In this document: piece after piece, positions 909-8,446 of the stretch | Position numbering within the stretch: the stretch's first letter is position 1 | Layout: the number at the start of each line of letters is the position of its first letter | NCBI GenBank assembly: GCA_012329085.1 | Contig: JAAXQB010000065.1 | Coordinates: 1-8,446 of the forward strand | Reading direction: 5' to 3' | Source: Methanosarcinales archaeon | GTDB taxonomy: Archaea > Halobacteriota > Methanosarcinia > Methanosarcinales > Methanosarcinaceae | Length of the DNA: 8,446 nt | Position numbers and translations under genes: made by a program | The notes under the pieces: model-generated | Databases searched by the model: none | Seen by the model: only the letters and a program-made list of their open reading frames with translations | What the model was told of the DNA's origin: nothing

Positions 909-1240
909 TTAAATAAATTGTTTTCGCAACGAAATGGAGAAAATATAACATTGCATCTCCTTTTATTTTAGAAAAAACCAAATTTATTCCTTTTAGAAAG
1001 CCCATCATTATTTTACCTTTTAGAAAAATATTTTTTTAAATTGTGCATAATTCATATATTTACTACGACCTTTTTCCTATTAGTTTTCATCAAACTTATC
1101 TCTTTTAATATTCTACCTACATATAATAGTGAAACCGCCTCATCAGTTTGCTTTTCGTAGCTTATTTGAAAAGATTATTTGGAACAAATGAGCATTATCC
1201 CGATTTTTAAAATCTATAAAAATAATGATTATTTGATTTT

Positions 1241-7152: not shown

Positions 7153-7491
7153 ATTTTGACATTAATGTATTATTTATGTGATATTTTTTATGATATATTA
7201 GCATATTTTTGAATTGTTTGTATAATGACATTTATAGCATATTAGAGTATTGAGGCACAGTTCCAAAATCTAGTGATTTTCTACTTTTTACGCCAAACAT
7301 ATTCACTTAATCAGTCAAATATTGTTTTCCAATCATTTATACATTTCTAAAATTCAATATTCAGCATTCAAACTACCAAAAATTAATTTTTTCAACATAA
7401 AAACAAAAAATTTTGCCGAATTTAATATTTAATTACATAAAAATCGATAGCTTACGCTAAATCCTTCTCAAAAATATCAATCTAAAATATA
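7153..7491. other. Non-coding stretch: operon upstream region and end of the transposase remnant
   Basis: No gene is supported in these 339 bases. The part nearest the permease is the leader/promoter zone. TATAAA-like and TATAT-like sequences on the minus strand (7231-7236 and 7192-7200) are candidate TATA boxes, neither with a convincing BRE. The 9-mer TAGCATATT occurs twice (7199-7207 and 7235-7243). A small inverted repeat AAAATC, loop TAGT, GATTTT lies at 7265-7280. The left end of the insertion sequence should fall somewhere in 7250-7491, but its terminal repeat cannot be fixed without the other end. Confidence 0.5.
7199..7243. promoter_or_regulatory. Candidate regulatory repeats upstream of the transporter operon
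   Basis: TAGCATATT at 7199-7207 recurs at 7235-7243, 36 bases apart and 47-91 bases upstream of the permease start. A minus-strand TATAAA (7231-7236) overlaps the second copy. The layout would suit a metal- or cofactor-responsive repressor site, but a third copy at 2184-2192 lies in another AT-rich gap, so chance is possible. Confidence 0.25.
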
Positions 7492-7737
7492 TCAACTAAT
7501 TGCAAATGGTTTGAATAACTCAAACAATTCCAACAATGTTGGTTTTATACATTCAAACATCCCTGCTCTTTTCATTGAAGCAAGTTTCATCTGATGAAGA
7601 ATACCATCATCAGTTCTAAATTGTTTTTTTCGGTGTGTTTTGAGACTTGTTGAATAAAGATTCTCAATAGCGTTATTTGTGGCAGGAGCTCCTTCAATAT
7701 AATGAAACATTGTTAAATTCGTCCAATTCTTTTGAAT
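7492..7737 (-). pseudogene. Transposase C-terminal fragment
   Basis: From the end of the nested palindrome block this reads IQKNWTNLTMFHY, then GAPATNNAIENLYSTSL, then a basic KTHRKKQFRTDDG and KLASMKRAGMF, ending at a stop at 7492. TNNxxE is a known C-terminal mark of several DDE transposase families, where the glutamate can be the third catalytic residue. The open frame can be extended to 7755, but its first residues (MLSERV) come from the palindrome and are not transposase. Confidence 0.8.
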
Positions 7738-7880
7738 AACTCGTTCGGAAAGCACATTCGGAAAGCTCGTTCGGAACGAACGAGCGTATGAGAAAATCTC
7801 TGATTTTCGAACGAATGTGCGTAATCACCCATTCTTCCAGAATGAGTTTAAGAAAATCTCTGATTTTCGAACGAACGAGT
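7738..7880. repeat. 143-bp block of nested palindromes inserted in the transposase
   Basis: Three pairs of 9-bp arms are nested. Outer: ACTCGTTCG (7739-7747) with CGAACGAGT (7872-7880). Middle: GCACATTCG (7752-7760) with CGAATGTGC (7812-7820). Inner: GCTCGTTCG (7765-7773), loop GAA, CGAACGAGC (7777-7785). A further worn hairpin CATTCT, loop TCC, AGAATG sits at 7830-7844. TTCGGAAAGC follows both the outer and middle left arms (7744-7753, 7757-7766), and an exact 25-bp sequence precedes and overlaps both right arms (7791-7815 = 7851-7875). This is what repeated insertion of one element into the loop of another copy would leave. The length is 2 modulo 3, and removing it restores the transposase frame. 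Confidence 0.85.
7791..7875. repeat. 25-bp direct repeat pair inside the palindrome block
   Basis: Bases 7791-7815 and 7851-7875 are identical, 60 bases apart. Each begins AGAAAATCTCTGATTTTC, itself a hairpin (GAAAATC, loop TCT, GATTTTC), and ends in CGAACGAA, the start of an arm of the palindrome family. A related AAAATC/GATTTT hairpin lies at 7265-7280 near the end of the transposase remnant. Confidence 0.85.
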
Positions 7881-7982
7881 GTTAATTTTCAATCGATATT
7901 GTATGTTTTTATTAAATGAATCAATTTTTTCCATCAATCCATTGAAATTTTTTTTCAGCTTTTTCAAGACTGTGTATTTCAT
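7881..7982 (-). pseudogene. Short transposase fragment between two palindromic insertions
   Basis: In the frame that agrees with removal of the 143-bp block, this reads YTVLKKLKKNFNGLMEKI, then DSFNKNIQYRLKIN, which joins cleanly to the C-terminal piece. An A8 run near the start of the fragment leaves doubt: in the neighbouring frame the first part reads EIHSLEKAEKKF, so a slip in that run is possible. Confidence 0.55.
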
Positions 7983-8007
7983 AACTCGTTTGGAACAAAC
8001 GAATGTT
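7983..8007. repeat. Variant palindromic element in the transposase remnant
   Basis: AACTCGTTTG (7983-7992), loop GAA, then CAAACGAATGTT (7996-8007). Seven base pairs next to the loop are perfect (TCGTTTG/CAAACGA); the outer right arm carries two extra bases. It resembles the perfect element at 8202-8224 with C-to-T/G-to-A style changes in both arms that keep pairing. The transposase frame changes phase here in the same way as at the other two elements. Confidence 0.7.
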
Positions 8008-8201
8008 TGTTTTCTTTATTTCTTCTACGGACAAGTTCTAATTTGCGTACAAATTTATAGAATTTTTTCTTTGTAATTTTAATCCAAGATTTATACTCAT
8101 TTTCATCTTGCATCATATAAATTTCCTCTAATTCAAGATTGCAAAGCATTTCAAGTTCTTTCTCGCGATTATAAAAAATATTTAACAATCTATATTTCAA
8201 C
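8008..8201 (-). pseudogene. Central transposase fragment
   Basis: This piece reads LKYRLLNIFYNREKELEM, then a Glu-rich stretch, then YKSWIKITKKKFYKFV and a basic end RKLELVRRRNKEN. It looks like the helical region that in related transposases lies between the second and third catalytic residues. The open frame (TTG at 8203, stop at 7979) has ends made of palindrome sequence, not transposase. No catalytic aspartate context is seen. Confidence 0.65.
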
Positions 8202-8224
8202 AACTCGTTCGTTCCGAACGAGTT
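8202..8224. repeat. Perfect 23-bp palindromic element
   Basis: AACTCGTTCG (8202-8211), loop TTC, CGAACGAGTT (8215-8224): ten perfect base pairs around a 3-base loop. It falls exactly where the N-terminal transposase frame ends (reading SERTSC then stop). Removing these 23 bases joins AISK to LKYRLL in one frame. It is the cleanest copy of the family and the best template for finding others. Confidence 0.85.
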
Positions 8225-8446
8225 TTAGAAATCGCATTATAAGCAACATGGTTTAATCTAAGCACTTTATATAAATCCTTCATCAAATTGGTAAATAATG
8301 TTTTAAGTTCTTCCCAAACACTTCGATCTTCTTCTGTTGAACAGCCACATGGTTTGCAAATATATTTTCCTATTTTAATATGCCCCATTCCCTTTTTGGT
8401 GTAACTGTTATAGCCATTATGAACCATTGAACAGCCGCATATGGGA
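8225..8446 (-). pseudogene. Transposase N-terminal fragment with zinc ribbon, runs off right edge
   Basis: The frame is open to the right edge, starting PICGCSMVHNGY, so the true start codon is outside; the ATG at 8427 is internal. ICGC and, after GHIKIGKY, CKPCGC form two cysteine knuckles of a zinc ribbon, common at the DNA-binding N-terminus of transposases. TEEDRSVWEELKTLF and YKVLRLNHVAYNAISK follow, then the 23-bp palindrome interrupts. Confidence 0.75.

Follow-up and report, generated by a model that had tools for sequence, protein, structure and literature searches.

Nested copies of a small palindrome in a broken transposase gene suggest repeated insertion of one element into its own loops

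How palindromes of one kind come to lie inside one another is the question raised by a short block of DNA in the window, i.e., the whole stretch of 8,446 nucleotides that was analyzed. The nested order that the original prediction had described for this block was reproduced: three perfect 9-bp arm pairs enclose one another (7739–7747/7872–7880, 7752–7760/7812–7820 and 7765–7773/7777–7785), the motifs on the 3′ side of the left arms match (GAAAG, GAAAG and GAACG), and the 25-bp repeat AGAAAATCTCTGATTTTCGAACGAA is present in exact form at both outer right arms (7791–7815 and 7851–7875). A nesting depth of three was reached in 0/200 dinucleotide shuffles of the whole window, a depth of two in 74/200 and a depth of one in 126/200. 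Moreover, the block folds strongly, both as DNA on the plus strand (z = −7.57) and as RNA on the minus strand (z = −6.53), with 0/200 shuffles equally good in each case, and its GC content is 0.42 vs. 0.30 for the window. To our knowledge, the way in which the smallest palindromic repeats spread is unsettled in mitochondria, and for REPs it is settled only in part. In a prokaryotic host with a whole genome, inserts that entered a young pseudogene recently, have units of fixed length and go into loop tips would allow the mechanism to be tested; such a case would also suggest that self-nesting belongs to these hairpins as such and not to organelles.

The whole nested block (7738–7883, plus strand, 146 nt) is located in a transposase pseudogene, at a position referred to here as site 3, and is flanked on both sides by native-reading sequence. 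Its outermost part is the 25-nt palindrome P1, of which the left end and arm (7738–7747) pair through 7739–7747 with 7872–7880 over 9 bp, the right arm and end occupying 7872–7883 on the same strand. The middle palindrome P2 (left arm 7751–7760; right arm with the end CGTA 7812–7823; plus strand) begins in the GAA loop of P1 and forms the start of a 48-nt unit, U2. The GAA loop of P2 in turn holds a second 48-nt unit, U3 (7764–7811, plus strand), composed of the innermost complete 25-nt palindrome P3 (7764–7788), a tail hairpin and GAA. Beyond the three pairs of the original prediction, a fourth 25-nt palindrome, P4, was found on the minus strand at 7824–7848, where it sits in U2 between CGTA and TAAG. 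The 48-nt unit can be written as the palindrome followed by CGTAT(A/G)A, the tail hairpin GAAAATC-TCT-GATTTTC and GAA. This hairpin is present in two identical plus-strand copies (7792–7808 and 7852–7868) and, with up to three mismatches allowed, at no further place in the window. Both 48-nt units are located at the tip of another copy’s GAA loop and have GAA on each side; this flanking GAA may belong to the unit itself.

The 146 nt can be divided into 25 (P1), 48 (U2), 48 (U3) and 25 nt (P4, reversed), by cuts that were chosen to fit. Setting aside the 25 nt of P4 brings U2 and U3 into register: with the inner inserts removed and P4 taken as 7824–7848, the two units are identical at 43 of 48 positions, a match that is 42/48 if P4 is placed at 7825–7849 instead. 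Four of the five differences form two compensating pairs in the arms.

Evidence on insertion was obtained from the host gene, a broken IS transposase on the minus strand (7492–8445), which covers residues 45–435 of a 435-aa family with residues 119–255 missing, and of which the N-terminus lies beyond the window. The assignment is based on tblastn of six relatives, P0122 first, and on DDE profiles in the intact relatives. By profiles the family is loosely near IS66 and IS1; the Pfam cut-off for IS66 was passed by two of three relatives, P0122 staying below it, and the NCBIfam cut-offs were passed by none of the three. A protein search with residues 234–316 of a read-through frame resulted in 655 matches among 656 candidates, and 108 of the 120 matches listed are longer than 420 aa. 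Closest among the matches listed is P0122, an intact protein of 435 aa, which three of the four window pieces match at 94%, 96%, and 98%, the fourth piece being without a separate score. Compared with P0122, the reading frame of the transposase also appears to be displaced by one at a run of eight A residues (7948–7955, minus strand).

Alignment with P0122 defines three sites. At site 3, 149 nt replace codon M354, a net gain of 146 nt (149 − 3). At site 2, 28 nt replace codon H322, a net gain of 25 nt (28 − 3), and the insert is a simple 25-nt palindrome on the plus strand (7983–8007). At site 1, codons 119–255 are absent (137 codons, 411 bp) and a simple palindrome (8200–8224, minus strand) marks the deletion junction. 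Inserts of this kind may contribute to deletions; at this site the loss may have proceeded via short homology between the right arm of the palindrome and a native GAGTTG. As P0122 is a protein, the empty sites at the DNA level are deduced from it. Target duplications are inconsistent among the inserts: a TAA duplication at site 3 fits only if the ancestral codon 354 was ATT, and at site 2 no clean target duplication was seen. A normal structural part of this IS, which the original prediction had raised as a counter-reading, does not agree with the comparison, in which the 435-aa relatives are uninterrupted and without the inserts, the 11 palindrome-coded peptide motifs searched for occur in none of the 120 relatives listed, and a weaker copy of the palindrome (1172–1196) is located outside the IS. 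Among all fetched proteins, the only occurrence of these motifs besides the window’s own read-through P0121 was the short motif LVRN in nine ChlD relatives, an unrelated occurrence.

Within 8.4 kb, six copies of the palindrome, used for the model R1, and one degenerate copy are present. The six 25-nt copies, two of them as joined arms, align without gaps and occur in both orientations. Their arms vary between copies but remain complementary, the P2 arms differing from those of P1 and P3 in matched fashion. The loop is GAA, or GGA in P4; the right ends are GCGTA (two copies), GTGTT, GTGAT, ATGTT, and GTTGT, and the left ends AAC or AGC. Taking into account that the statistics come from six related rows, in which kinship alone can beat shuffles without any structure, 98.1% of 54 cells are paired (0/500 shuffles), five of nine pairs show changes on both sides (1/500), the covariation score is 0.489 (0/500) and also lies above every slid version, and further pair types are ordinary (190/500). 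Four of the strong matches of R1, namely P3 (40.4 bits), P4 (34.2 bits), site 1 (37.7 bits) and site 2 (37.6 bits), are training rows of the model, and the plain stem score of site 2 was reached by 62/200 shuffles. In the intact genes of the window R1 gave at most 6 bits throughout. The search pattern proposed in the original prediction, AACTCGTTCG-NNN-CGAACGAGTT, is present once in the window, at 8202–8224.

The degenerate copy is intergenic (1160–1196, plus strand) and comprises an extra left arm (1160–1168) followed by a 25-nt palindrome (1172–1196), the same order as in the nested block. It is not a training row, and R1 scores the palindrome at 20.0 bits with a rough E-value of 0.0007; by plain stem score it is not significant, being reached by 95/200 shuffles. 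The extra arm pairs at 9/9 positions with G-T allowed; when the 30 bases upstream were shuffled 5000 times, equally good pairing was obtained in 20 cases. A GTAG at 1157–1160 overlaps the start of this extra arm.

These sequence comparisons support, and are best explained by, one small palindrome having inserted repeatedly into loops of existing copies of itself. The element inserted into itself, as the original prediction had put it, is supported because the insert can be measured against the intact P0122, the lengths resolve into 25 + 48 + 48 + 25, further sites exist and the arms stay complementary; the label “archaeal” that came with it is not supported (see below). It is quite probable that the block has been built up from copies of a tiny mobile palindrome without coding content, presumably mobilized in trans and with hairpin tips as targets. 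The basic unit would consist of about 25 nt, with a GAA loop between arms of 9 bp and a short end on the right, and a longer form of 48 nt would carry the extra tail hairpin. P1 would have arrived first and U2 would have entered its loop, followed by U3 in the loop of P2 and P4 in U2. Spread might depend on an enzyme that acts in trans on the single strand in its folded form, an HUH/Y1-like enzyme being the best guess; no mobilizing enzyme is visible in the window. Exposed hairpin tips would serve as targets, the preference for loop tips being drawn from two events, and the palindrome of site 1 could be an earlier insert that was later involved in a deletion. Tentatively, and with odds somewhat against it, the element might be a prokaryotic palindrome of about 25 nt for which its own hairpin tip is the preferred landing site and of which the arms are kept matched by arm-to-arm copying. 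If true, the self-nesting palindromes known from organelles would have an equivalent in cells.

The nested look might alternatively have arisen locally, if after a single insertion template switching or slippage in the hairpin duplicated arms and tails. The left side of the block is a 13-nt tandem (spacing 13 and 13) and the tail is repeated on the right side, as such copying would produce, and arms changing in step are expected if one arm is copied from the other. However, the left and right sides would need to expand in register, P4 is a 25-nt copy in opposite orientation, separate copies stand at two further sites of the transposase gene and the two P2 arms show matching differences from those of P1 and P3. 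Local copying is improbable. A somewhat better chance, still well on the unlikely side, is given to an ordinary REP or MITE family of an uncharted host, in which nesting is accidental and mobility is provided by either a RAYT or a parent IS, a reading that overlaps with the best explanation and differs in how the element would be filed. In size, in hairpin form and in having copies within genes, the element agrees with the REPs in the accessible part of PMC3733652, where REP dimers located in other palindromes are reported too, and the GTAG that overlaps the degenerate copy’s extra arm points in the same direction. Of the MITE-type traits, inverted arms are present and no parent IS was found; at its 5′ end the broken IS extends beyond the window. 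Against this reading, none of the six aligned copies has GTAG or CGTC at an end, no RAYT was detected among the 10 window proteins scanned, and both 48-nt units occupy a loop-tip position.

A structured RNA or a protein-binding array that functions at the position of the block would account for how strongly the plus strand folds as DNA and the minus strand as RNA, but the block lies inside a pseudogene, its copies are found in either orientation and at differing gene positions, and no Rfam match was obtained in the block region at E-values up to 1; this explanation is very improbable. We give hardly any weight to inverted repeats formed by chance or to an artefact of assembly. The window may be a metagenome record, which would leave room for an artefact, yet a depth of three in 0/200 shuffles and the length arithmetic against P0122 speak against both, and compensating changes are not expected from chimeras. 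Integron attC sites, IS200/IS605 ends and CRISPR repeats were set aside as presumably not fitting.

Returning to repeated self-insertion, the closest kind among known systems is represented by the self-nesting palindromes of Volvox organelles. In the accessible part of PMC2670323, the short palindromes of Volvox carteri mitochondria and plastids are on average 50 nt long and often have TAAA/TTTA as the loop. They share with the present element the small hairpins, the loops of usually 3–5 nt that often have one sequence, and the occurrence of palindromes inside palindromes of their own family, here seen in the nesting of P1, P2, and P3. They differ in that the loop is GAA here instead of TAAA/TTTA, the units are 25 and 48 nt and occur also within an IS gene, and the neighboring genes belong to prokaryotic families and not to an organelle (PMC2670323, accessible part). 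The GC clusters of yeast mitochondria (GC42) are likewise mobile hairpins with a GC content above their surroundings that merge into larger units, and the likeness includes changes concentrated outside the stems; unlike the present units they are 42 nt long, flanked by AG or ACT repeats and mitochondrial, whereas in the present copies it is the loop that stays constant (PMC4478555, as far as accessible). In the repetitive hairpin elements of sponge mitochondria, types differ by complementary stem substitutions as they do here, but these elements are organellar and vary in their loops while keeping their stems, in contrast to the nearly constant loop of the present copies (PMC2800124, in the part available).

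For prokaryotic REPs, palindromes of 20–40 bp with GTAG or CGTC ends are described, some in genes and some within other palindromes (PMC3733652, accessible part). The likeness in size and location stands against differences: GTAG/CGTC ends are lacking in the six aligned copies, GTAG being found only beside the degenerate one, the present units nest in loops of their own kind instead of forming dimers, and no RAYT was seen among the 10 window proteins scanned. In the literature surveyed, in which subscription titles are thinly covered, no prokaryotic element is described as nesting in its own loop, and self-nesting of such hairpins appears to be described for algal organelles only.

Searches for copies elsewhere gave nothing that could be related to the element. 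Scanning a collection of genome contigs with CTCGTTYGGAACRAACGAG resulted in seven stretches with one match each, in unrelated records of GC 0.455–0.697, which were judged to be chance. Four DNA patterns in viral contigs gave five, five, one and zero stretches, none relatable to the palindrome element: the surroundings of the five and one stretches of the first and third patterns have a GC content of 0.48–0.63 and dissimilar flanks, L018 lying in long reading frames, and R1 listed nothing in the five stretches of the second pattern at E-values up to 10. At two unrelated loci picked by the collection scans R1 reached 31.5 and 28.3 bits, scores that a large collection produces by chance, and therefore one single R1 match means little. 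By blastn the block had no match in phages and plasmids; the same holds true for the region 7200–8446 in plasmids and for the first transposase piece in plasmids and phages. For P0122, two stretches in viral contigs fit a pattern, none of which was confirmed, and the IS66 profile was found in neither of the genomes G001 and G002. Rfam at E-values up to 1 gave one weak, irrelevant match elsewhere in the window, and a tRNA search gave none.

The surroundings of the block bear on the host. Between 2242 and 7152 the window contains a row of ChlD-like, ChlI-like, ABC ATPase, and FecCD permease genes. The top matches of ChlD and ChlI are 99% identical, and the next ones, among the best 120 listed for each, fall to 58% for ChlD and 57–70% for ChlI, and the host therefore looks poorly sampled. 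The names shown among these best 120 ChlD and ChlI relatives are mostly Bacillota with few other bacteria, most rows being nameless, and no archaeon is among them, so that the original description of the element as archaeal finds no support there. Upstream of these genes, an exact 39-bp direct repeat (1241–1279 and 2101–2139, 860 bp apart) flanks a HepT/MntA-like pair (1428–2062). The repeat includes a stretch that we take to resemble a TATA box, with which an archaeal host would be compatible; duplication of a promoter may explain the repeat, or it may be a remnant of the arrival of the module.
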